From Pseudodesulfovibrio indicus (GTDB taxonomy: Bacteria > Desulfobacterota > Desulfovibrionia > Desulfovibrionales > Desulfovibrionaceae): a stretch of 64,000 nucleotides of DNA. Positions 7,360-35,090 of the stretch are shown in pieces. The translations under genes were made by a program, and so were the position numbers. Under the pieces are notes generated by a model. The model was given only the letters and a program-made list of their open reading frames with translations, did not search any database and was not told the origin of the DNA. How positions within the stretch are numbered: position 1 is the first letter of the stretch; every line of letters starts with the position of its first letter. Where the stretch lies: NCBI RefSeq assembly GCF_001563225.1, contig NZ_CP014206.1, positions 1,364,001-1,428,000 of the forward strand, written 5' to 3'.

Positions 7360-7453
7360 TGGCGGAAGCGTACAGGAGTCGAACCTGCCCGTGACATCAC
7401 TGCCACACATTGGTTTTGAAGACCAAGCGACACACCGGTGCCGACACGCTTCC
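7360..7453 (-). tRNA. selC: tRNA-Sec (anticodon UCA)
   Basis: Read on the minus strand this 94-nt gene has all the marks of a selenocysteine tRNA. It has an 8-bp acceptor (GGAAGCGT with ACGCTTCC), discriminator G and an encoded CCA. The anticodon arm is TTGGT-CTTCAAA-ACCAA with anticodon TCA, there is a long variable arm, and the T-arm contains GGTTCGACTCC. It decodes in-frame UGA as selenocysteine. The 5' end abuts a tandem repeat array. Selenoprotein genes are not evident in this window; the formate dehydrogenase here uses Cys. Confidence 0.95.
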
Positions 7454-7484
7454 GTGCGGTTTTCGCGCAGGCACGCCATCTGCG

Positions 7485-7952
7485 GCGTTGCTGCGGAAAT
7501 TTCAGACCCTTGCGTATGAAGAATACGCGGCGGTCCTGAACTTTCCTTGCGCCTTGCAGCTGGCGCACCTGCGCGAAAACCGCGAGAGCGCGCCATCTGG
7601 GGCGTTGCTGCGGAAACTTCAGACCCTTGCGTATGAGGAATACGCGGCGGTTCTGAACTTTCCTTGCGCCTTGCAGCTGGCGCACCTGCGCGAAAACCGC
7701 GAGAGCGCGCCATCTGCGGCGTTGCTGCGGAAACTTCAGACCCTTGCGTATGAAGAATACGCGGCGGTCCTGAACTTTCCTTGCGCCTTGCAGCCGGCGG
7801 ACCTGCGCGAAAATCGCGGGGGCGCGCCGTCTGGGGCGTTGCTGCGGAAATTTCAGACCCTTGCGTATGAAGAATACGCGGCGGTCCTGAACTTTCCTTG
7901 CGCCTTGCAGCTGGCGCACCTGCGCGAAAATCGCGGGGGCGCGCCGTTTGTT
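7485..7952. repeat. Four tandem 117-bp repeats directly upstream of selC
   Basis: The unit beginning GCGTTGCTGCGGAAA occurs at 7485, 7602, 7719 and 7836, exactly 117 bp apart, with only a few substitutions. Inside each unit GGAAA-x-TTCAGACC and GGTCCTGAACTTTCC are imperfect inverted repeats enclosing a small hairpin (GCGTAT-GAAGA-ATACGC), so each unit can form a long stem. GCGGTTTTCGCGCAGG (about 7456-7471) is the inverse of a sequence in the units. The length is a multiple of three, which keeps long frames open on both strands, but none looks like a real protein. The 150 bp that follow to 8107 contain nothing recognised. Confidence 0.9.
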
Positions 7953-10035: not shown

Positions 10036-10451
10036 ACTGGCATATGTGTAAGAACTATGTGTTGAGTATGTATGTAGCTACTTGATTTAATGTATGTATT
10101 TTGGATATTATTGGACTGATTTTCTCATCTCGGTAAGGTTTTTGGTCAAGATCCGCTAAAACTTGGCCCAAAACTTAACAACCGAACAACTTCATATATT
10201 CGCCTCTGATAACCGCCCAAATGACCTAGGACAATTCTATTCATCTAAAATGCCGCGGAGTGGTCCAACAAGACCTAACACCTCAAATCGACTTACGATG
10301 TCCTCTATCTAGAGTGACATGTTGTCTAGATCTTCGGATTGGGCAAAAAATCGATAGAATCAATCTACCGTCATTTTCATTTGCTGCTATTTTTAATTCT
10401 CAAAGGACAACGTCCCTAGAGTGGGGTTGTTTTCGAGTAAATAGGTTGAGT
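10036..10451. other. AT-rich left end of the island, no gene seen
   Basis: About 415 bp of low-GC sequence. One 72-codon open frame here has no ribosome site and no recognisable content. The stretch probably holds the recombinase-binding left end of the island. Confidence 0.5.
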
Positions 10452-10990
10452 AGTGGCCTCGGTTCTTCGGACCACTGAACGGCGATTTAAAGGTGGACAT
10501 GTTTACGAGCTACGCCGCTCTTTCGGTCCAGGCCAGAGGGGGTACCGCCTCTGGCCTGGAGCCATTCTGATATATTCCCATCGGCTTCCTGCCGTCAAAA
10601 GTGAAATGTGGCCGGCGTGTGTTGTAGAAATCAAACCACCAAGCCAAGGTCCGCCTCAGATCGCTTCCCGTTTCCAGCTCCCGCAAATAGATGCATTCGT
10701 ACTTCAGCGAACGCCACGGGCGCTCTACCATGACATTGTCCATCCATCGGCCACGGCCATTCCATAGAGATGCGCACTCCCACTTTCCTGAGCGTCCGTG
10801 TGAATTCGTAGCTGGTAAACTACGACCCTTGATCCGTGTTGAAGATATCCGGCACGCCATAGCGGTTCATAGCTTCCTCCAGGGCTGCCACACAGAAATC
10901 GGCATTCATCGTGTTTGAGAGCCGCCAGGAAAGGACGGCCCGGCTGTACCAGTCCTGAACCGTGACGAGGGACAGGTCACGGCGAAGGCC
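10452..10990 (-). mobile_element. Decayed IS3-family insertion sequence (orfB fragment)
   Basis: On the minus strand the region reads as the C-terminal part of an IS3-type DDE integrase: VQDWYSRAVLSW, then FNTDQGS, then (M)DNVMVERPWRSLKYE, then WWFDFYNTRRPH. The codon after DQGS, normally Gln, is TAG, and a frame change follows before RGRWMDNVM, so it is dead. The N-terminal part with the first catalytic Asp is missing. The terminal segment (10452-10570) contains an inverted-repeat end and a GC-rich palindrome around GGGGGTACC. Related ends recur at 15463, 18398 and 25139. Confidence 0.8.
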
Positions 10991-11308
10991 AATGCTACGG
11001 AACTGCAACGGTATCTGAGTTTTCATTGTGAAAGACTCGGGGCATGATGTCGATGACATGAGAAGAATCTTGTTGCCGCAGAATATTGCCGTTGAAAAGC
11101 TGACGTGATAACAAGATGGCGAAGATTTGAAGAGTTAATAACATTTCCTTTAGTTAGGATAAGACGATCCAAGTGCTATCTATGACTAGAAAGGGGAAGA
11201 TTCTAGCTTCAAAGATTAGAACCCGTGTGGTTTGACAAAGATCGGATTGATAACTGGATAAATGCTCAAGTTGATATTCAACGAAGATAATCAAAGAGGA
11301 TAAGTATA

Positions 11309-12574
11309 TTGAAAGTAGAAAATATTATTCATGATAAATATGGTGACCTCAGTGCACATGATGCAGTCATTATTCATAATAAGAAATGCGCACTGGATTA
11401 TCCCAAAGAGCATACTCCACTTTACATCCATCTAACGGTAACCATGAAGTGTAATGCAGGGTGTAAAGGCTGTATAAACTCTTGTATTACTTTTAACAGC
11501 TCTACGATCAAAAAAAATCATGATAGTGTTCCTGAGCGAGATGCGGCAGCAATCATCCAATTAATTAATAGGGATAATGCTACTGATGTTGCAGTGTGTT
11601 TTTATGGAGGAGAACCTCTTCTTGCTCCACGTTCTATCATAAAAACAATTGAAATCCTTGAGAACAGCAAGCCGTCAAAATGTCACATAAAATATATGCT
11701 TTACACCAATGGAATGAATATTCCTGAAGCCATATCTACACATGATATATTTCTAGATAATATTTGGCTTTACTCTATTTCGATAGATGGCGAGCAAAAG
11801 CAGCATGACAATATCCGGATAGGAACAAATTACAAGCAGATAGTAGACAACTTGCGACAACTCAGAGACAAAAAATGCTCAGCACAAAAACTGATGTGGA
11901 CAACATTAAGAGAAAAGCAGTCTTTAAGAAGTGCTTTCAATTCATTTGTTAGCCTCGAGTCAGAATCTTTGGTTAACCATTTCTTTTGGCATTTTGTTGA
12001 GGAGGATGATCCATTCTGCGACCTTCGATCTTTCTCAAAAGATTACGAGAATGATCTTCACTATATCATGAGGACATACATTGATCGGATGAAAGTTTGC
12101 GGTTCGATTTTGTCAATCTTGCATATAAATGAATTAATTTTATATTTGCTATGCAGGAAAAATCGGGGTTCTTCAGCATGTGGAGTCGAGTTATCCAGAA
12201 ATTACGACATTGTGTCGGGGAATATACAAACATGCGCTGATCTTCCGATGGAATATAGTCTAGGCAGGATAAATGATGATGGGTCCATCAGTATTAATGA
12301 CCAAGACCTATCGCATCTAGTTGAATATAAGAAAGTGTTAAATTGCTATGATTGTGGCATTCATGCCTACTGTGGAGGCAGATGCCCAGTACAAGCAATT
12401 ACAAGTAACGCTGTAAGAGTAAATCAATATTGCCAATTGTTGCGTTTGCATGTTGCAGTTGTTTCTGAGTACATCGATGAAATAAGAGATGTCATGAAGA
12501 TAAAAATGATATCAGTAGATGACATATATAGTGAGTCAGCATACTTCGTTCAATTTACAGATGTAACTCCATAA
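11309..12574 (+). CDS. Radical SAM protein with SPASM-like C-terminus
   Basis: 421 aa. Residues 48-55 hold the radical SAM cluster motif as CNAGCKGC (C-x3-C-x2-C), followed by FYGGEP (98-103) and an LYTNG motif. The C-terminal region has a cysteine set typical of SPASM auxiliary clusters: CADLP, then CYDCGIHAYCGGRCP, then YC. Such enzymes use S-adenosylmethionine and [4Fe-4S] clusters to modify peptides or proteins. The start is TTG at 11309 with AGAGGAT about 9 nt before it. The gene is 19 bp upstream of the triple-fusion gene and is surely co-transcribed. GC content is far below the chromosome. The substrate is unknown; no convincing precursor peptide gene was found next to it. Confidence 0.85.
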   Translation: MKVENIIHDKYGDLSAHDAVIIHNKKCALDYPKEHTPLYIHLTVTMKCNAGCKGCINSCITFNSSTIKKNHDSVPERDAAAIIQLINRDNATDVAVCFYGGEPLLAPRSIIKTIEILENSKPSKCHIKYMLYTNGMNIPEAISTHDIFLDNIWLYSISIDGEQKQHDNIRIGTNYKQIVDNLRQLRDKKCSAQKLMWTTLREKQSLRSAFNSFVSLESESLVNHFFWHFVEEDDPFCDLRSFSKDYENDLHYIMRTYIDRMKVCGSILSILHINELILYLLCRKNRGSSACGVELSRNYDIVSGNIQTCADLPMEYSLGRINDDGSISINDQDLSHLVEYKKVLNCYDCGIHAYCGGRCPVQAITSNAVRVNQYCQLLRLHVAVVSEYIDEIRDVMKIKMISVDDIYSESAYFVQFTDVTP

Positions 12575-12593
12575 TTTATATGCGGTTGATCTC

Positions 12594-15356
12594 ATGCATG
12601 AATATACATTGATTATAGCCGGTTTTGGATCCATTGGGACGGCTTTTTATAGTATGTACTCAGATTATATCAGGAGTTTCTCATGTTGCTATATTGTTGA
12701 TATTAAATTAATGGACTGTAATGATGATTTCGTTAAATTTAAACAGTTGGACATATCAGATGACACAAGCTTCCACCAATTCTTAGAAAGTATCAGCAAA
12801 GACAAAATATTCTTTTTAAATCTAACAGCTGGATTAGATACATATAAAATTAGACAGACTATCAATGAATTTGATTCCATATATATAGATACAGCCTGTA
12901 GTTCAATAAAATATAAGGACGAATATCGATACTCTGAACTAATGCCCTATACATACCAGCAGGTAAATGAGCATGGTAATACATTTTTGATGTGTTGCGG
13001 TTTAAATCCGGGCATCATTGAAATAATGATTCGTTTTGTCATATTCGAGCATTTCAAAGATTCAGAAAAAATTGACATTACGATATTTGAAAGAGATACC
13101 ATCTCTACAGCAAACCAATTTGAAGGGAATGCTCCTGTAAGCTGGTCTGTTGATACTTTGGTTGATGAAGTTGTACTTTCCCCAACGCTTGAGATACACA
13201 ACAATGATCTAATTGAAGCAAGCTCAGCACCAACGCAAATAGGCTATATTTCATGGTTTGGAGAAATTATTCCTGCACGTTTAGTTGGACATGAGGATAT
13301 ATGGAATTTACATGATTTAAAAAATATAAAGGTTAGAAATTGCGTCTATGCATATTCCTTCAGTGATGATGTAATGAATATTTTGTCGGATAAAATGGAA
13401 TGCGCAAAAAATCATCTTTACCTTCCTGATAGCCAACAAGAGCTTTTTGGAAATGATACGATTGTGGTTAAGATTTCAGATGCTGATAGAGGTGTTTCTA
13501 AAGTCTACGGATGGAGCATTGATCATAACGAAACATGGAGAAAATATCATATAAATTCTGTGCAATTCCAGGTAAGTGCTTCAGTCCGCTTTTTCTGTGA
13601 TTTAATCCGTGAATCTTTGATTGAACCAAATAATGGTTGCAATGCCACCCAATTGCCTATTCAAAATTCGCTTTGGGGTAAGTTGCGGCAAAAAATGCAT
13701 GATCTAAGCATTTTTTGGGAAGAAATTCCAAAAGATTCTATATGTCTCGAATCTGAAAGAGTGCTTAAGTCGGATACGGGTATTGATGTCACCATAAAAG
13801 ACAGTGATATTTCTGGAATTGGCGCATACGCTAAGCAAAACATTCAAAAAGGTGCAATAATTACATCTATAGATGGAGAACTTTATAGCACTAAGGAATT
13901 TCTAGATTCATATGATGAAACTAGTGACCGTTTTGTTCAAGTCGGAGTAAACGAATATCTTGGTCCGATGAAAGGGTCCAAGGCACAACAGTCAATAGAT
14001 GAGTTCTTAAACCATTCCTGCGACCCAAACTGTGCTTTTATCTCCTATGAAGATGGTTTTGCTTTCCAAGCAATAAAATATATTGAATTGGGAGAAGAGC
14101 TAACTTGGGATTACTCGACTACGATAAACTATGAAGATAAGCCCGTCCAATGCATGTGTGGCTCAAGTAACTGTAGGAGTCAGATTAGAGCGTTCTGGGA
14201 GTTGCCCGAAAAGGTTAAAGTCTTCTACTTAGAGAGATCTTATGTGCCTAATTATATATTGGAATTATCAAACTACAAACTGACAAAAAATCCACCGCAT
14301 GATTTATATATTAATTTGCACACAACTACTTCTTGTAATTTAAGATGTAAATATTGTTATGAGAAAAGAGGCATAAATAGAACGCCGACATACAGCAAAT
14401 CAGAACTAAAGAACTATTTAGATAAAGTGAATTGCACACATCCAACATTTATTTTTTTTGGAGGTGAGCCACTTTGTAATATCCGATATATCACAGAAAT
14501 TATTGATACTTACACAAGTGAATTTCAAGGAAACGCCTCATTTCAGATTCAAACAAATGGCATTTTGATCAGTAAAATCCCAATTGAAGCTCTTAACCAA
14601 CTGGAAATAATTCACATATCATTTGATGGAACGTGTGATACAATTTCTAACTCCAGAGGAAGTGAAGTCTATCATAAAATTTGTGAATCTATTAATTGGC
14701 TTCAGTCTGTTGGGTATAAAGGTCTCGTTATTGGGCGTGCTACTATTACTGAAGATGGGGATATTGGGAAAGACCTTCTAAGCTTATATGAACATTTTGA
14801 TTACATTCATTTTCAACTTGATAGTCGACTAGATGGATCGGAAAAAGTTTTTCTTTCAAAATTGATAACTGGTTATGAAATACTAATGAACAGGTGGCTT
14901 GAAGATATCGATTCTGGTACTTGCAAAAAAATCATACTACCTTTTTTATCATTAGCTATGATTAGAAAGGAAGGTGTTAAAGAAAAGCATAATTATCTTC
15001 ACTGCCTATCTGGATATAAAGGTATTACTATAGATGTGGATGGCAATATATTCGTATGCCCCGAAGGAGCTGGCGATAACGTCCATGGTGACACTGCAGC
15101 TTGCTCAATGGGAAACATTTATTCCGACTCTTTAACGCCTTCATTGCATCAGCCCGATACAAGATGCTATGTGTGTGATCTATTTGAAGTGTGTCGGGGG
15201 CGTTGTAGATGGAACAGCTATGGAATTTATTGCGATTCAGTCAGATCTTTAGTTAGCATCGTAGATAAATATATTGATACTATCTATCTGTATCATATGA
15301 GTTTTAGCAAAGGAACTTTGGATAAATTGCTGTATTGTTCAGAACCAATACCATGA
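12594..15356 (+). CDS. Triple fusion: homospermidine-synthase-like dehydrogenase + SET methyltransferase + radical SAM/SPASM
   Basis: 920 aa with three enzyme domains. (1) Residues 1-350: Rossmann dehydrogenase with GFGSIG (10-15), YIDTA (97-101) and GLNPGI (136-141), as in homospermidine synthase or saccharopine dehydrogenase. (2) Residues 395-530: SET domain with the pseudoknot motif NHSCDPN (473-479), GEELTWDY (500-507), and a post-SET zinc motif C520/C522/C527; such domains methylate protein lysines with S-adenosylmethionine. (3) Residues 570-905: radical SAM with CNLRCKYC (581-588), GGEP (623-626), and SPASM-type cysteines (804, 822, 858, 861, 867, 871, 880). It is translated right after the stand-alone radical SAM gene. 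All catalytic motifs look intact. The combined function is unknown; all three domains could act on lysine or polyamine-like amines. Confidence 0.88.
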   Translation: MHEYTLIIAGFGSIGTAFYSMYSDYIRSFSCCYIVDIKLMDCNDDFVKFKQLDISDDTSFHQFLESISKDKIFFLNLTAGLDTYKIRQTINEFDSIYIDTACSSIKYKDEYRYSELMPYTYQQVNEHGNTFLMCCGLNPGIIEIMIRFVIFEHFKDSEKIDITIFERDTISTANQFEGNAPVSWSVDTLVDEVVLSPTLEIHNNDLIEASSAPTQIGYISWFGEIIPARLVGHEDIWNLHDLKNIKVRNCVYAYSFSDDVMNILSDKMECAKNHLYLPDSQQELFGNDTIVVKISDADRGVSKVYGWSIDHNETWRKYHINSVQFQVSASVRFFCDLIRESLIEPNNGCNATQLPIQNSLWGKLRQKMHDLSIFWEEIPKDSICLESERVLKSDTGIDVTIKDSDISGIGAYAKQNIQKGAIITSIDGELYSTKEFLDSYDETSDRFVQVGVNEYLGPMKGSKAQQSIDEFLNHSCDPNCAFISYEDGFAFQAIKYIELGEELTWDYSTTINYEDKPVQCMCGSSNCRSQIRAFWELPEKVKVFYLERSYVPNYILELSNYKLTKNPPHDLYINLHTTTSCNLRCKYCYEKRGINRTPTYSKSELKNYLDKVNCTHPTFIFFGGEPLCNIRYITEIIDTYTSEFQGNASFQIQTNGILISKIPIEALNQLEIIHISFDGTCDTISNSRGSEVYHKICESINWLQSVGYKGLVIGRATITEDGDIGKDLLSLYEHFDYIHFQLDSRLDGSEKVFLSKLITGYEILMNRWLEDIDSGTCKKIILPFLSLAMIRKEGVKEKHNYLHCLSGYKGITIDVDGNIFVCPEGAGDNVHGDTAACSMGNIYSDSLTPSLHQPDTRCYVCDLFEVCRGRCRWNSYGIYCDSVRSLVSIVDKYIDTIYLYHMSFSKGTLDKLLYCSEPIP

Positions 15357-15462: not shown

Positions 15463-15632
15463 AGAAGTGGCCTCGGTTCTTCGGACCACCAACAGCGTTT
15501 TGAAGGTGAACAGTTTAGCTACGCTGCTTGGCGGGACCAAGCCAAAGGGGGTACCCCCTCTGGCCTGGACCGGAAGAGCGCTCGTTAACATGTCCACCTT
15601 ATAATCGTCGCTCGGTGGTCCACCCCACTTCT
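15463..15632. mobile_element. MITE-like remnant, 170 bp, with ends matching the IS3-like element
   Basis: It starts AGAAGTGG and ends CCACTTCT, the exact inverse. Just inside, both ends carry GGACCACC and an AAGGTG(G)ACA stretch in opposite orientation. The middle has a palindrome centred on GGGGGTACCCCC. The left half is clearly homologous to 10452-10560. It has no coding capacity and separates the radical SAM cassette from the ATPase cassette. Confidence 0.7.
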
Positions 15633-15677: not shown

Positions 15678-18260
15678 TTAATTAAATGCCTTGAATATTA
15701 CCTGGACAGCATCAAAGTCTGCCTTCAAAGAGTAAAGGTCGGGCTTGTCTGGGATTTCATCAGGGTTCGTATGCCCGTCAATGAACCCACAACAGCGACT
15801 GAAAATGATCGACAAGTTCTCTCGATGCTCATCAATCTTGTCGGTCTTAATTTTTTCGAAATTCGTAACGGCAACATTCTTCTGATACCTTCTTACCGTA
15901 CCGCAAAGCACGTGCGATTCTACTAGGACCTCAATAGCAGATCTCAAAAGGCCGTACCCATCAGCAGCCAACTGATCTCTCTTTGAATCGCGCTCTTCAG
16001 CGGGGAGATTGAATATATTGCTAATATCAGCTTTAAACTTATTAAAAGACTCTTCTTTGGGAGCACGAATCCGTTCTAAGTACCCTGTATTCTTTTCATC
16101 CATTTGAACTTCATACATATTGAGCATTACGCCTGAATAGAGCGGAGATGTAGATAGCTGCCTGATACTGTTTAGAAGAAGAATACTGTGCGTAAAGATA
16201 ATCACTTGCCTCTCTTTTGACAGCTTTAAAAGTCGTCTGGCGACTTCATCAATAATTTTGTGGTCAAGACTGGTGACAGGATCATCGAAGACCGCAGGAG
16301 ACTTGCCTTTATCAAATTGCAGCTCAGTCAAAAATTCAGCGAGAGCAATTGCCTTCTGCTCTCCCTCGCTCAAAATTTCATTTAATTTGTAGCTATCGCT
16401 GATAGACTGAACAATTTTGGACTGCCCCTTGTCAGTCTTAAAGCTCATGCTCACAGGAGCATTTGAACGTCTAAAAAATTTTAACTCAGCTTCAAAGGTC
16501 TTCTGGAATTCATCAGCGACTAACTCATTTCGCGCAGCAGTGGTCTTGTCGCTGATTTTCCTAGACGAGAACAGCTTGGAGTTTGATTCAAGGACATATT
16601 TGATTTTAAACTTAGCAAGAGCGGTTGTGACATCTGCCATATTCTCGCTGAGTGTCTTCCTGTCTTCCAATTCATTGATTGCCTTTTGCAGCTTAGCTTC
16701 TACCTCGTTGAGGTTTGAAAGAGTTTCATTTTTGTTTGCCAGAGAGATTTCAATTTCTTCTTTTTTGGCCTCCAAAGTTGAAATAGTTTCATCGAATGGT
16801 ACTGCGAATTTATAATCTGCGACATCTTTTGCAACCTGGCGCGAGACAACCTTTTTTAGTTCTTTAATCGCAGAGTTGTACGTCTTTAAAAAATCTGGCT
16901 GGATTGCGGCAGAGTCATCATCTATCCCATACACAGCAATATTGAATTGGTTTTCCTCTGAAAACAAAGCAATTATGTCTGCAAAAATTTTTATATTTTT
17001 TGTAACCTTGGCAATGTCTTGTTGAGTTGTATCGTTCAGAAGCTTTCGATAGCTTTGCAACAACTCAAGCGAGGATTTGTCAGACAATTTCTGTTGACAG
17101 TAAACGCAAACCTCTTCTTCCCCTGACGGGTAATTTTTTTTGCCGATCTTGGTGATGTACTGGTCAGCTGCCTTGATGAAAGCTATGAACTCAGGAGAGT
17201 CGTAAAGCTGAACCCCTTTCTCCTCGACAACATCTTTTAGACCGACCTGTTCCTTACTCTTTAGCATATCCAGGCTGGTAAGGTTCTCAGCAAATTCTTT
17301 CAAAGACTTTTCAGACACTTTGGTCTGCTGTCCTTCAATAACCTTGATTAGCCTATCAAGCTCAGTGATATGCTGATTTCGGTCAGTGATCTCTTTGCTC
17401 AGAAGTTCTTTGTTGACCTTTTTTATCTCGTCTTTTTTGGCCTTCAGGTCAGCCTCATGCTTAACTGTAAATAAGGCAAGATCATCGATATCTTTATCTC
17501 TTGTCTTTTTATTTAAAGAAGAAACGCATTTTTGCACCTCGGTTTCGTCATGCAAAGAATCTTCCCATGATAGAGAGGTGTCTATCGTCGCAATCTTTGC
17601 TTTATGAAGCTTTGACAGTTCGTCTAACTCTTTGATCATAACGGTGAATAGGTGGAATCCAATAGGACTTACCAACAAAGTCCGTTCACCATCCAAACTT
17701 AAATGAACGCAATTATTGTTGAAAAAAGAAATGCCAGCCAAATCGATACACTCATTGGCTCCGTCCCAAGTGAATACTTGGTCTATGCCTCCTGCCTTGT
17801 AAGTAATCAAGGCTGACTGTTTGCAACTACAGCCACCATTTACGTCAGGATGAATCTTGGTTTCAGCATCGTAGCAGTATCCAAAATTCTTTAGAACACG
17901 ACCATAACCAGTTTTACCAGTTCCGTTCTCACCATAAACTACGGTCATGTCCTTGGAGAACTCAAGGGACTGTTTAGAGGCAAGACGGTTTACACCGCAA
18001 ATATCGCTAATTTTAACAAGCTCAATATCTACTGCTGAAGCACTAAATGCGGGCCTCGTGATTTCTGGAGTTTCCTGTCCCTTTTTACCAAGACCAATGC
18101 CCTGCAGAAAAGCGGAATAGACCTCGTCCCTTTCAGCTTCTACCAAGTGGCCTTCTTTCTGGACTACCTTCTGAACAAGAATCTTTGCCCAGTTCCCGGT
18201 TTCTTCGGCCCATTCCCAAAGATAGTCGATCACATCTCTTTTGGTTTCAGTTGTAGACAT
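15678..18260 (-). CDS. Large ABC-type ATPase with coiled coils and zinc-hook-like CxxC (RloC/PrrC-like, putative defence)
   Basis: 860 aa. The Walker A is GENGTGKT (110-117), the ABC signature LSEGEQKA lies near 620, and the Walker B region FDDPVTSLDH near 655. This is the split arrangement of Rad50/SMC-like ATPases (AAA_13-type). Long charged helices flank a CVYC motif at 385-388, which sits where Rad50 and RloC place a zinc hook. The C-terminal 90 residues include R773-SAI-E777 and later histidines, reminiscent of the R-x3-E...H triad of PrrC/RloC anticodon nucleases. The match is suggestive, not proven. Flanked by IS relics, it forms a single-gene cassette. An anti-phage, tRNA-cleaving role is inferred; a DNA-ended sensor ATPase is the alternative. 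Confidence 0.7.
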   Translation of the reverse strand: MSTTETKRDVIDYLWEWAEETGNWAKILVQKVVQKEGHLVEAERDEVYSAFLQGIGLGKKGQETPEITRPAFSASAVDIELVKISDICGVNRLASKQSLEFSKDMTVVYGENGTGKTGYGRVLKNFGYCYDAETKIHPDVNGGCSCKQSALITYKAGGIDQVFTWDGANECIDLAGISFFNNNCVHLSLDGERTLLVSPIGFHLFTVMIKELDELSKLHKAKIATIDTSLSWEDSLHDETEVQKCVSSLNKKTRDKDIDDLALFTVKHEADLKAKKDEIKKVNKELLSKEITDRNQHITELDRLIKVIEGQQTKVSEKSLKEFAENLTSLDMLKSKEQVGLKDVVEEKGVQLYDSPEFIAFIKAADQYITKIGKKNYPSGEEEVCVYCQQKLSDKSSLELLQSYRKLLNDTTQQDIAKVTKNIKIFADIIALFSEENQFNIAVYGIDDDSAAIQPDFLKTYNSAIKELKKVVSRQVAKDVADYKFAVPFDETISTLEAKKEEIEISLANKNETLSNLNEVEAKLQKAINELEDRKTLSENMADVTTALAKFKIKYVLESNSKLFSSRKISDKTTAARNELVADEFQKTFEAELKFFRRSNAPVSMSFKTDKGQSKIVQSISDSYKLNEILSEGEQKAIALAEFLTELQFDKGKSPAVFDDPVTSLDHKIIDEVARRLLKLSKERQVIIFTHSILLLNSIRQLSTSPLYSGVMLNMYEVQMDEKNTGYLERIRAPKEESFNKFKADISNIFNLPAEERDSKRDQLAADGYGLLRSAIEVLVESHVLCGTVRRYQKNVAVTNFEKIKTDKIDEHRENLSIIFSRCCGFIDGHTNPDEIPDKPDLYSLKADFDAVQVIFKAFN

Positions 18261-18397
18261 ATTTCATACCCCAAAATTACCCTAAAATTTGGAATGGCAA
18301 GGATTATACAAAAGCCAAAATATCATAAACGTATTATGTTTTGATAGTTTTAGAATTTGATATACCTCATCAAAACAGGACGTCAAACTGTAAAGTC

Positions 18398-18620
18398 AGA
18401 AGTGGGTCCACTTTGTTGAACCACTGAGCGGCGTTTTTTAGGAAGAGGCGGTAATCATTTTTTAGCGTTATCTTCCAACATAGAGAGGATTTAACGAGGC
18501 TTGAAACCCAGAGCTAGGCCCAGGGCCATATGCCACCTATGGATGTGCTGGCACGCCATAACTGTTAATTGCGTCTTCCAAAGCTGATACGCTGCGGGTC
18601 CTTGCCTCATAATTATTTTT
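18398..18620. mobile_element. IS3-like element remnant
   Basis: It begins AGAAGTGGGTCCACTT (18398-18413), whose exact inverse occurs at 25139-25154. Further in, GGCACGCCATAAC(T)GTT and CTTCCAAAGCTGATAC resemble 10850-10890 of the decayed transposase. It bounds the CBASS cassette on its downstream side. Together with 18261-18397 it makes up the whole gap between the ATPase and the CBASS effector; no gene is present there. Confidence 0.6.
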
Positions 18621-18662
18621 TATCTTAACCGATTCTAACTGGTTTATTAGCAGCTATGTAGG

Positions 18663-19703
18663 TTACCCCTGAACTATTTCTTGCCGCCCCTTATCTACTC
18701 TGACAGCCCATACGTACTGGTTAGTCTTAGAGTCGTACTGGTAAACGAACGTCTCGGGATAGGCATTTTCCTGATAATACATCCCCAGTTTGAAAGCGCT
18801 CGAAGCGCCGGTGGCGAGGAAGAGATGAACCCGCTCGATCTTTCCGCGGACGTCACGGATGTAATCATTGATTGCAGCCGTAATCTCCGTGAGTTGCCGC
18901 TCGCAAAGGACTGCATCGGTCTTGATGTCCCACTGAGGCTCGACCCGGGCAATGCAGTCACGCAGGTGCTCTGGGATCTGCTCATCATGTATGGGAATGG
19001 TGAAAGGGATAACGATAGCCAAGTCTTTTTTAAGTTCCTTGGGCTTGGCTATCTCAATCCGCTTGCCGCTGTCGCACTCATCAAGAGTGCTCCATTTAAG
19101 TGCATTGCGGTCATAATCCATAACCTCAAGGCCTTTGCGCGTCCCCAGGAGGCATCCTGCGGCATACAGCAGGGGGACATCTGCCAAACCGGCGAAAAGC
19201 ACGTGCTTGGGGCTTTGCTCCTCGGAGGATATCCGATGTTTCAGGTCCCGCTCAATTTGTTTCAATTCGTCGAGTCTCTCCTCTGGAGTTGCCCGGTCAA
19301 TGATCGGGTAGGAAAAGGGGATTACACGACCCAAGGTATACTTGGATGGTAGGTCATCTCTGGGAGGAGCCTCAGCCATCCTGGATAGGCCGCGAACATA
19401 CACTAGGGCGGTCGACCAGCTCTTCTCGCAATGTTTGATGCGCAAGATGAAACAGACAATACCGACAGCCATTAGGCTGATAGACATCCAAAGCGGGGCC
19501 TGTGCGCCCCACGATGCGGTGACCGAAGACAAGACAGGAAACTCCAGGTCGGCCTTGAGACAAAACCCAGCCCCCCCTGCCCCAAACGTCCCGGCCAAAA
19601 ACACCCCGTTGGCAGCCCTAAGACCCGGGTCCATAGATCTGTATTTCAGCCACATGGTGAATAGCCACGTGATCCCGTTCCATATCGTCTGAAAAAGTTT
19701 CAT
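18663..19703 (-). CDS. cap14: CBASS effector with two membrane helices and a SAVED domain
   Basis: 346 aa from the ATG at 19703 (GGAG 8 nt upstream). Two hydrophobic segments (about residues 29-50 and 68-90, the second WMSISLMAVGIVCFIL) precede a C-terminal SAVED-like sensor domain, recognised by paired patterns such as HVLFAGLADVPLLYAAG and, near the end, VHLFLATGASSAFKLG. In CBASS, SAVED domains bind the cyclic oligonucleotide and the linked membrane helices then disrupt the inner membrane of the infected cell. It is the last gene of a four-gene operon, 1 bp after cap3. The SAVED call rests on motif style and strong context. Confidence 0.75.
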   Translation of the reverse strand: MKLFQTIWNGITWLFTMWLKYRSMDPGLRAANGVFLAGTFGAGGAGFCLKADLEFPVLSSVTASWGAQAPLWMSISLMAVGIVCFILRIKHCEKSWSTALVYVRGLSRMAEAPPRDDLPSKYTLGRVIPFSYPIIDRATPEERLDELKQIERDLKHRISSEEQSPKHVLFAGLADVPLLYAAGCLLGTRKGLEVMDYDRNALKWSTLDECDSGKRIEIAKPKELKKDLAIVIPFTIPIHDEQIPEHLRDCIARVEPQWDIKTDAVLCERQLTEITAAINDYIRDVRGKIERVHLFLATGASSAFKLGMYYQENAYPETFVYQYDSKTNQYVWAVRVDKGRQEIVQG

Positions 19704-19704
19704 T

Positions 19705-20166
19705 TTATAACTCCGTGAGTTGTTTGCACACGCCGTTTTTGAATCCGATCCAGGCGTTGGTCCTTTCTGTCCCAACGATGAGGAAAACGAGACTTGAGCC
19801 CTCGTATTTCCCTTTTCGAAGAAGACTGTTCCAGTCCTTCAGGTCAGTCGAAGACGGGGTGGGCACCGGCTCAGGGTGTGTATGCCATGCCCCAAGAAGC
19901 GTCAGGGTGCTGCTAGATATCTTCCATGCCCTATGGAGTTTCAGGTTGTGGAAACAGGACCGGAAGAAAAACGATCTGCGACGGCGGTCCATGAAATACG
20001 GGACGGTCACCGATTCGACTACGCGATGGTTTCCCTGAAGAGGAAAGCGTCCGATGAGCAAGCCACCGGCTTCCTTGTCCTTGAGGTCAAGCTGGCGATA
20101 CCCAAGCATCTGTTCGACAGCTTCCTCCATGAGAATCAGCTTGCCGCTTGACAGCGCAAAATTCAT
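19705..20166 (-). CDS. cap3: CBASS JAB/JAMM isopeptidase (Cap3)
   Basis: 153 aa if started at the ATG at 20166 (GGGGGAG lies 9 nt upstream); the frame is open to an ATG at 20187 inside cap2. The JAMM metalloprotease signature is complete: the upstream Glu in KEAGGLLIG and the zinc motif GAWHTHPEP followed by S-x2-D (TPSSTDLKDW). Cap3 removes the conjugate that Cap2 adds to the C-terminus of the CD-NTase. It lies between cap2 and the effector gene with 1-5 bp gaps, as expected for one operon. Confidence 0.88.
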   Translation of the reverse strand: MNFALSSGKLILMEEAVEQMLGYRQLDLKDKEAGGLLIGRFPLQGNHRVVESVTVPYFMDRRRRSFFFRSCFHNLKLHRAWKISSSTLTLLGAWHTHPEPVPTPSSTDLKDWNSLLRKGKYEGSSLVFLIVGTERTNAWIGFKNGVCKQLTEL

Positions 20167-20171
20167 CCTCA

Positions 20172-21950
20172 TCATCTCCCCCTGCATACCGGGCAGATGA
20201 CACTTGCAAAGTCTCGGGAATCCTTCACTGAGAGAGGAGAGTCCGCCTCAAAAGAAGGATTGAATTCCAGCCCCATCTTTTCGGCCACGTCTGCCCGGCC
20301 TCGCCATGAACGGTACATGCTCGGGGATCCTTCTGGGTCATTGATGGTGTCCAAAAGCATTTCGCAGGCCATGATAGCAGTCTTTTCGGCATCCAGGGCA
20401 GAAAAGGGTATGAAGCTGCCGCAACCGGTCAAGTCCTTAGCCACGACTTGGTCGGGCTTTAGATAGTGGCAGGTCATGTACGGGCCCTGGTCACGATCCC
20501 TGACCAGGCAGTTGAAACAGCCCTTGGTATCGCCGTCCAAAACGGCGAAGCCGCCGACTCCCGCGGCTTCCACCCAGGTGAAAAGTATTGGAGGCAGCCC
20601 CATGCCCTCCCGCTGTCGGCTGACTTCGCGCATTCCGTTGAAGTCGCCGGTTGCGTCGACGATAAAATCCATTCGTTTTGCTTCGCCCTCGTGGTCCTCA
20701 AGCCATTCCTCCCGACCCATATGTCTCCAAACGGTCGAAAGGCCGACATGTTCACTGGCTAGGTTGTCGGCAAGCGCCTTGGCCTTCTTTGTTCCAATTG
20801 AACTGCTCCCGAGATAATGGCGAAAGACGTTCTCATGAGTGAAATAATCGGAGTCCACAAGGACGAGTTCGCCAACTCCCATGAGTGTCAACTTCTCGGC
20901 CACCCGGCAGCCGACAGCCCCACAGCCGACGACGGCCACGGACACCTCCGTTAGGTCGTACTCTGCACCAGCTCTTTCGGTCATGAATTCCCTGTAGTGG
21001 TGTTCGATTTCAATTGGAGTGATCTCCCACGGCTTTTCGCTGTCGCTCTCAAAAAAATTCTCCTTGCTCCTGCCTTTTATGTGGACCCCGAAGAGGGCAT
21101 GCCCGCCTGCGGGCCGAGGGGTGGAGAAGAAAAAGGTATAGTGCTGAGTCTGGGATGTCCTGGGCCTGTCCTTCTCCGATTTTTTCCTGAACTTGGACTT
21201 CTTCCCTGACGGTTTTTTACGGAACTTTCCGTTTTTCATCCAGACGTCGAACTTGGAAGTCTTCACCTTGACCGAACCAAACAGCGAGCGCACGTAGGCC
21301 GCCGACACTGTGTCGGAGGAGGGCGGCAACACAGGAGTGTCGAGGGGAAAGTACCAGGCTGTCTCGGGATCACCGTTTTTGAAACGCTGGGCATAAGCCG
21401 CCGACGGGAGTTCTCCGGCATACGTGATAGTGGATCCTTTGTGAGTGGATCTGACTGTCATCCGAACCGATTCCCTGGCTGGCGGGGCAAAGAAGGCAAC
21501 AGTTTGCTTGCCCTTGAGCCAGCGCCAGAATCCCTCGAATTCGTCGACGAGGTTGTCTGGATCTGGCTCCTTGAGGCTTTCCTCCAACCTCTTAAGGGCA
21601 GCGTATATGCCGGACGACAGAATGTCCCGGGGGCGGGAGGTTGCAAAGAATCCACCCGCGCGCCGATCCCAGAAACAGATATCGCCATGGCAATTCACAT
21701 GGTTGAGCAGTTCGTACCTTTCCGGATTACGCAGATAGACCTTGGGCATGTCCGCCGGGAACTGATTGGTGATGACGACGACGAGATCATGGGGCTCGCC
21801 ATCAATGGTACAGGTCACATCCCATGCAGCCAGACAGGTCTTCTCGTGCTCAAAAGAAGGCTTGCCATCCAGAACCTCTCGCCTGGCGACGTCGTGGATC
21901 TCTGGATGTGCGGCCAACCATTCTTCAACCTGATCCAGATCCAGGTTCAC
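20172..21950 (-). CDS. cap2: CBASS E2-E1 fusion ligase (Cap2)
   Basis: 592 aa, ubiquitin-transfer-like fusion. The N-terminal E2-like domain (about 1-150) contains NCHGDIC; Cys92 is the probable E2 cysteine. The C-terminal E1/ThiF domain (about 330-592) has the nucleotide motif VVGCGAVGCRVAEKL, the acidic VDSDYFTHEN and a likely catalytic Cys in KDLTGCGSFIPF. It ends with a CPVCRG zinc-type motif. Cap2 attaches the CD-NTase C-terminus to targets and primes cyclic nucleotide synthesis. Start is GTG at 21950, overlapping the CD-NTase stop by 4 nt (GTGA), so the two are translationally coupled. Confidence 0.92.
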   Translation of the reverse strand: MNLDLDQVEEWLAAHPEIHDVARREVLDGKPSFEHEKTCLAAWDVTCTIDGEPHDLVVVITNQFPADMPKVYLRNPERYELLNHVNCHGDICFWDRRAGGFFATSRPRDILSSGIYAALKRLEESLKEPDPDNLVDEFEGFWRWLKGKQTVAFFAPPARESVRMTVRSTHKGSTITYAGELPSAAYAQRFKNGDPETAWYFPLDTPVLPPSSDTVSAAYVRSLFGSVKVKTSKFDVWMKNGKFRKKPSGKKSKFRKKSEKDRPRTSQTQHYTFFFSTPRPAGGHALFGVHIKGRSKENFFESDSEKPWEITPIEIEHHYREFMTERAGAEYDLTEVSVAVVGCGAVGCRVAEKLTLMGVGELVLVDSDYFTHENVFRHYLGSSSIGTKKAKALADNLASEHVGLSTVWRHMGREEWLEDHEGEAKRMDFIVDATGDFNGMREVSRQREGMGLPPILFTWVEAAGVGGFAVLDGDTKGCFNCLVRDRDQGPYMTCHYLKPDQVVAKDLTGCGSFIPFSALDAEKTAIMACEMLLDTINDPEGSPSMYRSWRGRADVAEKMGLEFNPSFEADSPLSVKDSRDFASVICPVCRGR

Positions 21951-22936
21951 GCACTCGCTCCGGCCGGGGCAACAGCCCGCTTGGTCTTTTGGGACGTCTC
22001 TGCCTCAGTCGGCACCGGGAAATCGTCGCCGAACTGCTTGCGAAGGATTTTACAGGCGTCAGTTTCAAGGTCGCAGTCGGCGGCCTCAAGCAAGGCTCCC
22101 TTGAGGGTTTCCATGGTTTTTTTGAAATTGCTCATCTGAATATCAGTCAAATCCGCGTTGAGGTCGCAGAACGGTTCGACTGGCAACATGGCTTTGAGGC
22201 CGTCCCCCCAGACGAACAGTAGAGTGTCGACCAGGAGGATCAGGGCCTCAAGGTCGTTGTAGGTCGCATTAAAGTTTCGCTTAGGAATAAAGTGGTTCAG
22301 GACACAGACCGTCAGGGCGATGCTGTAGGGTTTTTCGCCACCAAGCGTCTTGTCGCGCCACTTCTTCAGATACCTGATGACACGGCGCATCTGGGCGCGT
22401 TCATCCGGGTCGTCGGAATATTTGTTTACCTTGGCAAGCAGCCCCTTGGGGTCGGACTTCTCCCAGAACTTCTTGTCGGCATCAGAGTTCCGCTTGCCCT
22501 TTGCAATGTAGATATCGTTGGAATACTCGTTGGGGTCTTTTGCATAGATGGCTAGATCAACGTGGTACTGAGGTACGTTCTCACGGACATATTGGACAGT
22601 CACGCAGGAGCGCCGGATATCGGCATTGCGGCTAGCCCTATCTAGAGCGTCATAAACCTTTTCCTTGAGCTCCACCGAGTTCTTGTAATCGTCAGTGGTC
22701 GCGTTGAAAAGCAGCCCGACGTCGATGTCATAATCGCCGTCCTTGGGGAAGATGCCGGTGCCCATGGCATAGGAGCCCTGGTTGAAATGCGCGAAGCTGA
22801 GCCCGTCCTCCAGGTTCTCGTTGAGTTCAGCGATCAGCAGATCCCGTTTTTCGCGCAGGATTTTCGTGTCATCCAGATTCCCCAGCTCAATGGCCTCGTG
22901 AAATTTTTTGAAATGCTTTTGAAGGTCGAGTGACAT
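21947..22936 (-). CDS. CBASS CD-NTase (cGAS/DncV-like nucleotidyltransferase)
   Basis: 329 aa. The nucleotidyltransferase core is clear: GS at 54-55 in QGSYAMGTG, then DGDYDIDVG with the metal-binding pair D70/D72, and the third acid D128 in YHVDLAIY. Such enzymes make cyclic di- or trinucleotide alarm signals when phage infection is sensed. The C-terminus ends GASA. An Ala or Gly end is what Cap2 conjugates, which agrees with the cap2 and cap3 genes downstream. It is the first gene of the operon, read away from the divergent nuclease at 23158. I cannot assign the clade or the cyclic product. Confidence 0.92.
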   Translation of the reverse strand: MSLDLQKHFKKFHEAIELGNLDDTKILREKRDLLIAELNENLEDGLSFAHFNQGSYAMGTGIFPKDGDYDIDVGLLFNATTDDYKNSVELKEKVYDALDRASRNADIRRSCVTVQYVRENVPQYHVDLAIYAKDPNEYSNDIYIAKGKRNSDADKKFWEKSDPKGLLAKVNKYSDDPDERAQMRRVIRYLKKWRDKTLGGEKPYSIALTVCVLNHFIPKRNFNATYNDLEALILLVDTLLFVWGDGLKAMLPVEPFCDLNADLTDIQMSNFKKTMETLKGALLEAADCDLETDACKILRKQFGDDFPVPTEAETSQKTKRAVAPAGASA

Positions 22937-32229: not shown

Positions 32230-33843
32230 TCAAAAGGAATCAACCATGTCGGTTTCCATTTCTTCAAATTCGGAAATGGTCCCAGCCTCGATCCTGGCGA
32301 TGACACTTTTTATAGCAATAATGGTTGGGTCTAGGGCCACGGCCATGCCGGGTTGTCTGGCTGGGCCGTCCTCTTTGAACGCTTGTAGCGATCGGTCACG
32401 TTCTTGTTCCAATATTTCAAGATGCTCTTTGTGCACCTCGATATTGTCCCAAGCATTGAAGGATAGACAGCGATAACAAGAGAATGGGACTCGAGCGAGA
32501 AAGGTCTCCGGTTCGTTTGAATCGGGCAAATAAATTGCACATCCAGTAGGCTTAACGCAAAGGCCAGCTTCTTCAAATTGTTGCGCAGCTCCTACAGGAA
32601 TATATGTCTGGCGAGTGCCGGTAATGTTGGGACGTTTGAAGATTTTGTTATTGAAAGCTTCGACTACAGGTTTGTGGTAGGGAGCGACGCCTTTGTCCAC
32701 AATCTCAGCATGCTTTGCCCCAAGTTCGATATAACTCTTTGCTGAACTCCTTCTTGAGTGACATAGGTTGTAAGCAATTGAATCCAATGAGGCGCCGTTG
32801 AGCATTAAATTGGTGCCGCGAGTATGCCTGAATCTTCGTGAGTTGATATTCAAATTCTCACCTTGACGATTTAGGATTTTCCCCGTGTGCTTAAGAAGCT
32901 TATTAGAAATTAAATAAGCAATGGTTTCAGTGGGCATGTGGTATTTTAAACGCCCTTTAGTTGTGTTTGTCCACTTTGGAAGTAAAGGCAACTGATTCAG
33001 ATCATAATCTTCATCAAAACCTAGTCTGAGATAGTCTTGTTTTATTTCTTCGATTCTTGTTTGAATAAACGCTGCAAATTCCGTATGAATTTGCAGCCTT
33101 CTGAAATCAGTGCGAGGTTCAACATGCCCTTGTTTGTCCATTGGCATGTTGATAAAAAATCTAATTGAGTTCCTTCCGTCGTGTTCAGTGATAAAATCAC
33201 ACACTTTTAGCCAAGCTATTTGTCTCCGGCGTTGTCCAAGGTTTGCAAGCAAAAGCCAAAGAAGAAACGTATTATCATCAAGGCTATGATTTAAATATGC
33301 TTCGTGGACAGCATCGCTTAGTGATTGAAACTCAGCTTCAGTGAATGGTCCTTGTCTTGGGTCGCAAGTCTTAACTGCAGTGTGTGGCGGTGGGTGCTTT
33401 ACTTTGATATCTTTTAATTGTTCATAAGTCTCTTTAGTTACTCCAGTGAGGCCAAGCTTGTGATAATGGCAACATAGGGTCTTTATCTGTGCGCTGGTAT
33501 TTGGGTTGTTGTGCGTTGAAATAAAGGATATTACTTCAGAAGATGTTATGCTTGCGATTTTTGTGTTGTCACAGTATGTCGACTGAACAAATTTTTTTAG
33601 ACTTGTATAGTATTTTTCAGATGTGGCAAACGTGTAATTAGCCACTCGCCATATGAAATAGCGTTTTGTGCTATTAAACAATGCATCAGTAAAAATTTCT
33701 CTGAGAAAATTGAAGTGAATATAGTGTCTGTGTACCCCGTCATAGAACATCCAGGTATCTTCTCTTGGGTCGTAAGTTTGTCCGTCAAGCGTGAAGGCTA
33801 CCCTAGGGAGTTCATAAAATAGATTCTCTTGCAGCTGCTTCAT
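32230..33843 (-). CDS. Tyrosine recombinase 2 (537 aa)
   Basis: The catalytic domain is in the C-terminal half: Arg in LGQRRRQIAWLKV, RRFRHTRGTNLML (H-x-R) and a Tyr in SAKSYIELGAKH after CHSRRS. A cysteine-rich end (CVKPTGCAIY, then CYRCLSF) may bind zinc. It overlaps the first recombinase gene by 4 nt (ATGA), so both are made together. Not a typical phage integrase: the length and added C-terminal region fit large recombinases of multi-recombinase elements. Confidence 0.82.
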   Translation of the reverse strand: MKQLQENLFYELPRVAFTLDGQTYDPREDTWMFYDGVHRHYIHFNFLREIFTDALFNSTKRYFIWRVANYTFATSEKYYTSLKKFVQSTYCDNTKIASITSSEVISFISTHNNPNTSAQIKTLCCHYHKLGLTGVTKETYEQLKDIKVKHPPPHTAVKTCDPRQGPFTEAEFQSLSDAVHEAYLNHSLDDNTFLLWLLLANLGQRRRQIAWLKVCDFITEHDGRNSIRFFINMPMDKQGHVEPRTDFRRLQIHTEFAAFIQTRIEEIKQDYLRLGFDEDYDLNQLPLLPKWTNTTKGRLKYHMPTETIAYLISNKLLKHTGKILNRQGENLNINSRRFRHTRGTNLMLNGASLDSIAYNLCHSRRSSAKSYIELGAKHAEIVDKGVAPYHKPVVEAFNNKIFKRPNITGTRQTYIPVGAAQQFEEAGLCVKPTGCAIYLPDSNEPETFLARVPFSCYRCLSFNAWDNIEVHKEHLEILEQERDRSLQAFKEDGPARQPGMAVALDPTIIAIKSVIARIEAGTISEFEEMETDMVDSF

Positions 33844-35090
33844 TTAAGCTTCCTATTGATAAAAAAATCCTCCTGCATCTCCATCGAGATTTCGTGAGCC
33901 TTGTTCTGGATAAATCTTTGATCATATAGCTCTGGCATCCTAGATGCTGGTCCCCATCCCATTAATTGTCGTCGAGCCTCACGAACATCATCTGCTGACA
34001 TTTGTAGAGCTTCTGCGTTTTCGGAGAATCGTTCGTTGCAGGCATGGCGAACTAAGTGTTGGGTCAGATCGTCGGGAATTCCAGACACATTTCTGAGTGT
34101 TTTTAAGATTGAAATGGCCGAACTGTAAGAGAGCTTTTCACCATTACGTGCAACGAAGAAGAATTTGTGGTTTCTGGCTTTCTTTAGTCGTCTTCGGTAG
34201 TTAGTAAGATATCGATGAATCAGCGGTGTCCAGCTTTTCTCCTGATTTGAATTGAGGGGGAGCGGACGGGGCAATGTTTTAACTTGAGGGGCTGGATTCC
34301 GATCATCTTCTGGATCGTCAGGGCGGCGAACAATCTCAATACGGGGGCAGTTGCCAGATAGCCTTACATCTTGAAGCTTAATGCAAAGAGATTCGCCAAT
34401 GCGTAGGCCAAAAGCTAGGCACATCGTGATATAGAGTTGGTTTCGAATTTGAACAAAGGCATTCTTCCATGGATTGTCAGGATGTCCAGGAACGATCACT
34501 TCTACGATTCGATCCTGAACTTTCTTGCTAAATCCCCTTGGGGGGTTACTTCGGCTTTGGCTCCGGCCTATGCGCCTCACAGCTCTTAGTCTCAACTCGT
34601 CTACAAAATTTGCCCTGACTTTATGTAGTTGGCCAAACTCAGGCCTGCTTCTATCTATGTTTTTGATGAGCTCTGAGCCCATCCAGTTCAGATAATGGGC
34701 AATATAGTGAATTCTTTGAGCAGCAGTAGCATTATTTACGGTTTTGATTGCGTCACCACCAAGCTTGACAACGGTGGTTTGTTGGAGGGCCATAAGAGTA
34801 TTGAAATGTAAGCGGCAGGCATGGAGCAAGTTGTCTCTTTCAGAGCCGGTGAGCATTTTACCAGATCGAAATCGCTCTTTCAGATCAATCTCATTTAAAG
34901 CAGCCCATTCGAGCAGAATTTTAATAGCCGTCAGCTTGACAGTTATGGTGTTGGCTGAATCTCGTGGCCTGCACATGCTCATAACATAATAAGCCGGAAG
35001 AAATGGAAGCGTTCCGTCTGGCGCAAGCAGAACAGGGAGCCGTTCTCCGCCCTCAAGGGTTATTTCTAGAATTTTAAATCTGTTGACCAT
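33840..35090 (-). CDS. Tyrosine recombinase 1 (416 aa)
   Basis: First gene of the mobility operon, 145 bp from the island's right end. Catalytic residues: Arg in AFGLRIGESLCIKL, HLVRHACNERF (H-x-x-R) and Tyr in MPELYDQRFI, preceded by a Trp in MGWGPASR. The N-terminal core-binding domain is present. The ribosome site before the ATG at 35090 is weak. With recombinases 2 and 3 and the coiled-coil proteins it forms the element's transposition machinery. The 145 bp between it and the island end is AT-rich and presumably holds the promoter and the recombinase binding sites. Confidence 0.85.
   Translation of the reverse strand: MVNRFKILEITLEGGERLPVLLAPDGTLPFLPAYYVMSMCRPRDSANTITVKLTAIKILLEWAALNEIDLKERFRSGKMLTGSERDNLLHACRLHFNTLMALQQTTVVKLGGDAIKTVNNATAAQRIHYIAHYLNWMGSELIKNIDRSRPEFGQLHKVRANFVDELRLRAVRRIGRSQSRSNPPRGFSKKVQDRIVEVIVPGHPDNPWKNAFVQIRNQLYITMCLAFGLRIGESLCIKLQDVRLSGNCPRIEIVRRPDDPEDDRNPAPQVKTLPRPLPLNSNQEKSWTPLIHRYLTNYRRRLKKARNHKFFFVARNGEKLSYSSAISILKTLRNVSGIPDDLTQHLVRHACNERFSENAEALQMSADDVREARRQLMGWGPASRMPELYDQRFIQNKAHEISMEMQEDFFINRKLK

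Follow-up and report, generated by a model that had tools for sequence, protein, structure and literature searches.

We describe a two-gene operon of Pseudodesulfovibrio indicus whose core, a radical SAM/SPASM protein followed by a dehydrogenase resembling homospermidine synthase (HSS), is a rare conserved pair of genes that recurs as a unit in other bacteria. The operon lies in a stretch of 64,000 nucleotides (the window; positions 1364001-1428000 of a single-contig genome of 3,966,573 bp). In this operon, the gene of the radical SAM/SPASM protein (rSAM1) stands 19 bp upstream of a second gene, in which the HSS-like dehydrogenase is joined to a SET domain and to a second radical SAM/SPASM domain (rSAM2); both open reading frames (ORFs) are present as claimed in the original prediction, which had been made from the sequence alone. 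The conservation of rSAM1 with a stand-alone HSS-like partner is new here, and the operon may point to an amine-modifying route not yet described.

Evidence for the pair was obtained by scanning 84,980 species genomes, in a pattern-seeded search, with the rSAM1 alignment; this yielded 23 relatives, 17 strong (L022-L038, 41-50% identity) and 6 weak (L039-L044, 23-26%). The weak ones were left out of the counts, and L003, L004, and L005, which share contigs with L030, L028, and L023, were counted once with them. The strong loci include metagenome-assembled genomes of Desulfobacterota type and of proteobacteria, one from Lentisphaeria, and the isolate Desulfothermus okinawensis. In 14 of the 17, rSAM1 is directly followed by an HSS-like gene, at a gap of -29 to +76 bp. 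The contig of L035 ends after the first residues of an HSS-like gene, that of L037 ends inside rSAM1, and in D. okinawensis (L038, 9992-11232) rSAM1 is a pseudogene split over several frames, with no HSS-like match in that genome at E <= 1e-5. The stand-alone HSS-like relatives span 384-417 residues as aligned (329 in L023, which is cut by a contig end), and the identities of the two proteins co-vary across loci (r 0.93 for 105 pairs, with no correction for common ancestry). Within the window's phylum, the HSS-like profile matched 4 of 395 genomes, namely, that of the window and those of L023, L028, and L030. Beyond the pair, a comparison of 18 regions showed no third gene family common to more than 6 of them. 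Among 597 ORFs with 20-110 aa lying no farther than 1.5 kb from the loci (12 largest families), no small-ORF family was common to more than 5 of 17 loci, the one found at five being antisense inside a neighbor gene of related loci. The lack of a credible shared small-ORF family at this distance makes a local precursor peptide less likely. No relative was confirmed in viral contigs; phages gave just two weak radical SAM matches, and none of 30 plasmid records covered 80% of the query.

The dehydrogenase domain belongs, by its predicted fold, to the HSS/CASDH superfamily. No Pfam family matched this part above cut-off (best in the window, Sacchrp_dh_NADP at E 0.14), and the 15 family members gave weak Rossmann-type matches (TrkA_N in 13, best 6.6e-5; Sacchrp_dh_NADP in 8, best 4.3e-5). 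The 15-row profile, searched against the PDB, found HSS (6s65, 3.9e-8), CASDH (8deb, 6.1e-8), and Helicobacter pylori CASDH (8h4z, 8e-8). The AlphaFold model of residues 1-562 (pLDDT 88.3, pTM 0.81, 24 sequences; a span chosen because rSAM2 relatives were misplaced in the mixed alignment) compared best with CASDH 8deb (Z 36.1, root mean square deviation [rmsd] 2.9, 362 residues aligned), with Foldseek in agreement, and also with HSS 6y87 (Z 31.6, rmsd 3.2, 378 aligned). A close whole-length match to HSS proper was not obtained, the match at E 3.9e-8 covering residues 10-158 of the profile only, and no polyamine-enzyme model is among the 12 NCBIfam families listed for the 15 members.

The catalytic residues of HSS and CASDH are also kept. 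CASDH catalysis uses the triad H228-E229-E230 together with E188 (PMC10413350); E188, H228, E229, and E230 align to E192, H233, E234, and D235 of the fusion in an HMMER alignment counted by eye. The HSS active-site residues given in PMC4725965 are N162, W229, E237, H296, and E298, which correspond by local motif and spacing to N138, W184, E192, H233, and D235. The mutagenesis primers that this source prints for HSS encode CCGADPGMV, GFVSQGLQ, and YGFLVTSNESIS, in which N162, E237, and H296 are replaced by the mutated residue, and the counterparts in the window read CCGLNPGII, TLVDEVVL, and ARLVGHEDI. W184 and E192 are eight residues apart, as are W229 and E237 in HSS, and the catalytic His/Glu set of HSS is otherwise kept, with Asp (D235) replacing E298. 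Across the 15 rows, N138, W184, E192, H233, and E234 are identical, and residue 235 is Asp in 14 and Glu in 1. Since the position of N138 is Asp in CASDH, the family mixes HSS-type and CASDH-type features. Residue D36, also kept in 15 of 15 rows, is placed where the second Rossmann strand ends; an Asp there indicates NAD over NADP, and D36 suggests NAD as the coenzyme.

For rSAM1, the Pfam Radical_SAM match (4.8e-9), the CX3CX2C motif, and seven SPASM cysteines (C291, C309, C346, C349, C355, C359, and C375, invariant in 16 of 16 rows) are, at the level of sequence, those of a radical SAM/SPASM enzyme. Its C-terminus TD[VG]TP is likewise kept in all 16 rows, and 47 residues precede the first cluster cysteine in the window, compared to 47-83 across the rows. 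The AlphaFold model (pLDDT 86.9, pTM 0.89, 16 sequences) has as its nearest PDB folds CteB (5wgg, Z 29.1), anSMEcpe (4k36, Z 28.5), and ChlB (Z 26.8); we take 5wgg to be CteB, and the title of the entry itself says sactipeptide thioether formation.

The SET domain was found by Pfam above cut-off (2.8e-14 at residues 408-507), and the second part of the 1-562 model superimposed on the MLL1 SET domain 5f6l (Z 14.4, rmsd 2.4, 134 aligned). The NHSC motif and the post-SET cysteines are invariant in 15 of 15 SET rows, and Y507 is presumably the catalytic Tyr; fold, NHSC, Tyr, and post-SET cysteines together mark a predicted SET methyltransferase. The best 60 of 62 solved SET relatives are histone or protein lysine methyltransferases, BurB excepted. 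This 180-residue bacterial SET protein, which matches residues 471-541 of the fusion, methylates free methionine (PMC12542666), and small substrates are therefore possible for a SET domain. SET relatives elsewhere are mostly stand-alone, with a longer N-terminus in three. One genome (L006, 1489-3221) has three tandem SET genes, and no SET relative found is closer than two of these (38-42% identical). At L055 (760-1911), L056 (811-1932), and L059 (1462-2598), the SET domain stands behind ~200 residues that look membrane-like by eye, and a gene judged kinase-like, also by eye, lies beside the SET genes of L055 and L056.

The C-terminal rSAM2 matches Pfam Radical_SAM above cut-off (1.3e-13 at residues 577-712) and SPASM below it (0.0094), and its score against TIGR04084, a radical SAM/SPASM model of NCBIfam (155.7 bits, 1.5e-45), does not reach the cut-off of 225. 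The SPASM pattern comprises seven cysteines at a typical spacing; with its CX3CX2C motif and SPASM cysteines, rSAM2 fits a radical SAM/SPASM domain as judged from one protein. Altogether, the domain assignments of the original prediction are upheld by profiles, those of the HSS-like and SET domains also by an AlphaFold model and PDB comparison, which support both folds, and that of rSAM2 by sequence.

The fusion is read in one frame, carrying in order GFGSIG (residue 10), YIDTA (97), GLNPG (136), HEDIW (233), NHSCDPN (473), CNLRCKYC (581), and CRGRC (867). An open frame of 920 codons would arise by chance at ~3e-32 at the base composition of the gene. The operon is AT-rich, with 34-37% GC in the four kilobases 11001-15000 versus 64% at 40-60 kb. 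A frameshift or assembly artifact was rejected on the basis of the single open frame and of a third-position GC of 0.26-0.36 in all parts of the fusion (overall GC of the 40- to 60-kb stretch, 0.64), and chance SET or HSS matches were rejected on the basis of agreeing folds in the structure comparison. The junctions sit at natural domain ends: the HSS-like relatives stop near residue 384, the SET fold starts from ~392, and the radical SAM match starts from 577. Predicted promoters and terminators were no more frequent than in shuffled sequence.

The same domain order was sought in samples that overlap in part, with few candidates scored per genome and strict E limits in four further groups and in the window's family, and a full-length match was seen in the window's genome only. 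No second full-length fusion was found in the phylum (395 genomes, 352 with single-domain matches at E <= 0.001, the window's genome being in both; two best candidates scored per genome) or among 199 genomes of the family. None was found in four further groups of 249, 299, 149, and 145 genomes (842; single-domain matches in 0, 5, 5, and 2; limits of E 1e-14 or 1e-13, three to six candidates scored), of which the 249-genome group had no positive control and shows little, nor in eight further genomes, with partial matches in 4 of 8. As the full fusion was seen in this genome only and SET is rare in genomes with rSAM1, the pair seems to be the older unit, to which SET and rSAM2 look like additions.

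The operon is flanked on both sides by remnants of insertion sequences (IS), and a candidate defense gene and a CBASS set lie beside it (Table 1), as anticipated by the original prediction of a defense-type island. A 158-aa ORF of unclear family lies directly downstream of the integrase-type genes. A tandem array at 7463-7945 (4.1 copies of a 117-bp unit, 93% matching) adjoins a predicted tRNA-Sec at 7360-7453. In the relatives, 78 neighboring ORFs were collected from 15 of the 17 loci (all but L035 and L038), of which 74 were scanned and 4 were judged spurious by eye. PADLOC (E <= 1e-10) matched dGTPase (4), mad3 (4), mad2 (2), CARF_LolE (1), and PDC-S33 (1); the commonest Pfam families were HD proteins, c-type cytochromes, lytic transglycolase, and the domains of histidine kinases and iron repressors. 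From this Pfam tally, the tables carrying no protein assignment, we read the PADLOC matches as ordinary HD-type dGTPases and ABC/SMC-type proteins, and the neighbors look mostly like housekeeping genes. With IS remnants on both sides and general enzymes as neighbors in the relatives, the position of the operon says little about its function, and capture by a mobile element explains the location in the window equally well.

Table 1. Features of the operon and its surroundings (positions in the window)
Feature	Position	Strand	Basis or remark
Operon of two genes, rSAM1 and fusion	11309..12574; 12594..15356	+	ORF list; 19-bp gap
rSAM1, stand-alone radical SAM/SPASM enzyme	11309..12574	+	421 aa, TTG start; Pfam, 16-row alignment, AlphaFold
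rSAM1 cluster motif CX3CX2C (C48, C52, C55)	11450..11473	+	Invariant in 16/16 rows
rSAM1 extreme C-terminal tail FTDVTP	12554..12571	+	FTDVTP 11, FTDGTP 4, YTDGTP 1 of 16
Triple fusion: HSS/CASDH-like dehydrogenase, SET, radical SAM/SPASM	12594..15356	+	920 aa, ATG start, single frame
HSS/CASDH-like domain (residues 1-384)	12594..13745	+	Profile, fold, stand-alone relatives beside rSAM1 in 14/17 loci
GLNPG motif	12999..13013	+	N138 matches HSS N162; N138 in 15/15 rows
HED catalytic triad (H233, E234, D235), predicted	13290..13298	+	CASDH H228-E229-E230; HMMER alignment to 8deb
SET domain with post-SET cysteines (residues ~392-550)	13767..14243	+	Pfam PF00856, fold, 15-row alignment
SET motif NHSCDPN (residues 473-479)	14010..14030	+	NHSC invariant in 15/15 rows
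rSAM2 domain (residues ~567-897)	14292..15284	+	Pfam Radical_SAM, TIGR04084
rSAM2 cluster motif CNLRCKYC (C581, C585, C588)	14334..14357	+	Sequence
rSAM2 SPASM cysteines C804, C822, C858, C861, C867, C871, C880	15003..15233	+	Spacing compared by eye
Left flanking repeats (27 and 53 nt), edge of transposase remnant	10449..10560	.	Repeat search
Right flanking repeats	15463..15569	.	96% and 81% identical to left copies; repeat search
Broken transposase remnant upstream of operon (rve, rve_3 pieces)	10510..11059	-	Pfam PF00665 4.6e-10, PF13683 2.1e-12
AAA/SMC-type protein, candidate defense family PDC-S06	15678-18260		PADLOC match
CBASS SAVED effector	18663-19775	-	
CBASS JAB	19705-20187	-	
CBASS E1-E2	20172-21950	-	
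CBASS cyclase	21947-22936	-	
Integrase-type gene	33840-35090		Above Pfam cut-off; adjacent to next
Integrase-type gene	32230-33843		Just below Pfam cut-off

We propose, tentatively and as something close to an even call, that the operon encodes an anaerobic line of enzymes modifying a substrate that bears an amine. rSAM1 would abstract a hydrogen from it and oxidize or otherwise activate the carbon beside an amine or alcohol. By means of the HED triad, N138, W184, and E192, and with NAD(H), the HSS-like domain would form an imine and reduce it, coupling an amine with an aldehyde or transferring an aminoalkyl group. Methylation of the nitrogen (or a sulfur) by the SET domain would come next, and rSAM2 would perform a second radical change. 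The order of these steps is a guess, and we infer each of them. As the HSS-like domain keeps the residues that HSS and CASDH use on amines, the amine-directed modification suggested in the original prediction is a reasonable reading. The pair recurs with neither precursor nor fixed neighbor, which suggests that its substrate is one available generally. A small molecule resembling a polyamine or a diamino acid, or else a housekeeping protein, seems a likelier substrate than a peptide whose gene lies next to the operon; BurB would allow a small substrate by analogy, while the rSAM1 folds lean to peptides. A wider claim, which we hold to be rather unlikely, is that of a class of anaerobic amine chemistry absent from the papers found, in which an imine-forming dehydrogenase of HSS/CASDH type is the obligate partner of a SPASM radical SAM enzyme, the version with four active sites found here aminoalkylating or cross-linking, methylating, and radically rearranging one amine substrate, be it a new polyamine-like metabolite or a hypusine-like protein mark.

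Several findings weigh against the proposed modification line. The nearest solved relatives of rSAM1, CteB, ChlB, and anSME, act on peptides or proteins. Moreover, rSAM1 of the window deviates at 11 positions where the 15 other rows agree, D208S, C209A, E212S, and W229F among them (11930-11995), so its reaction may differ from that of the family, and the changes would fit an altered substrate; the HSS-like domain of the window deviates at 6 positions where the 14 other rows agree, e.g., G52L. SET and rSAM2 accompany the pair in one genome, leaving their joint action without independent support; of the 17 genomes with rSAM1 loci, one has a SET match, and a weak one (E 4.2e-6, 64 residues). Finally, the alignments behind both AlphaFold models are shallow (16 and 24 sequences). 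In an alternative that is doubtful, though to be taken seriously, the two radical SAM/SPASM domains modify a ribosomal peptide or a specific protein encoded elsewhere, the HSS-like domain makes a secondary-amine cross-link or puts an aminoalkyl group on a lysine, and the SET domain methylates lysine. It would account for the peptide- and protein-modifying folds nearest to rSAM1, for sub-threshold NCBIfam matches of rSAM1 that include PapB, DynA, and sulfatase maturases, and for the protein lysine methyltransferases that, BurB excepted, make up the best 60 of 62 solved SET relatives. Nevertheless, the small-ORF search showed no family at more than 5 of 17 loci, that one being antisense (a distant or very diverse precursor would escape it), no third gene is widely shared, and the 47 residues before the first cluster cysteine of rSAM1 are short for a leader-binding domain, which takes ~80 residues plus a linker.

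We consider it improbable that the pair alone carries the function and that SET and rSAM2 were joined to it recently by chance, with little joint chemistry. The restriction of the full-length fusion to one genome and the near absence of SET from rSAM1-locus genomes would fit such a joining, as would codon usage, the short SET part correlating at 0.67-0.73 with the other parts versus 0.77-0.90 among the others; however, the SET and rSAM2 catalytic motifs are intact and the junctions (~384/~392) fall at natural domain ends. Least probable to us is the antiphage or antibacterial role raised in the original prediction, in which the operon would make a defense metabolite or modify host or phage proteins. 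PDC-S06 and the CBASS set at 15678-22936, the integrase-type genes at 32230-35090, and the 12 PADLOC matches in five families among the 74 neighbors are what speaks for it. These matches are, as read, single components of general enzyme types, with none in more than 4 of 74; no relative was confirmed in viral contigs, and the IS remnants offer a simpler reason for the location, which leaves the defense role with little support, no PADLOC scan having been made of the operon's own proteins.

HSS-type and radical SAM enzymes each perform hard chemistry, on amines and on C-H bonds. A conserved pair that keeps its catalytic residues and has no known product leads directly toward a new metabolite or modification. 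By tying this pair physically to a methyltransferase and to a second radical enzyme, the fusion narrows the chemistry that is possible and makes the question of the substrate testable with two genes. In the PMC papers searched (subscription papers and preprints being outside this scope), no paper describing the fusion or the pair was found, in agreement with the original statement that no such system was known. The same papers showed no pairing of HSS with radical SAM, of SPASM with saccharopine dehydrogenase, or of SPASM with anti-phage; HSS and a SET domain are mentioned together in a review of chloroviruses, and radical SAM and deoxyhypusine occur together in five papers.

Among known systems, CteB, anSMEcpe, and ChlB share with rSAM1 the core and the SPASM fold (Z 26-29), whereas rSAM1 has the [FY]TD[VG]TP end and a partner dehydrogenase, with no precursor found beside the operon. 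The TIGR04084 (AF0577) subfamily is the best NCBIfam match of both rSAM2 and rSAM1 (76.2 bits for the latter), but both score below its curated cut-off, and we know of no member fused to SET or to a dehydrogenase. BurB is likewise a bacterial SET enzyme, able to act on a small molecule (PMC12542666), but it is an S-methyltransferase acting on methionine, with neither a radical SAM nor a dehydrogenase domain. CASDH (8deb, 8h52) is the closest fold to the HSS-like domain and shares the His-Glu-Glu/Asp triad and E188; it differs in D140, where HSS and this family have Asn, in its coenzyme NADPH, and in joining free aspartate semialdehyde to putrescine (PMC10413350). HSS (4plp, 6y87, 6s65) is alike in fold (Z up to 31.6), in the acidic residue 36, in the NPG motif, and in the W-E-H constellation, but identity is 16-20%, HSS has ~475 residues compared to ~380 here, and its E298 corresponds to D235. 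Unlike HSS, the present family is paired with a radical SAM enzyme wherever the neighborhood is complete, and its copy in the window is fused to SET and radical SAM domains.

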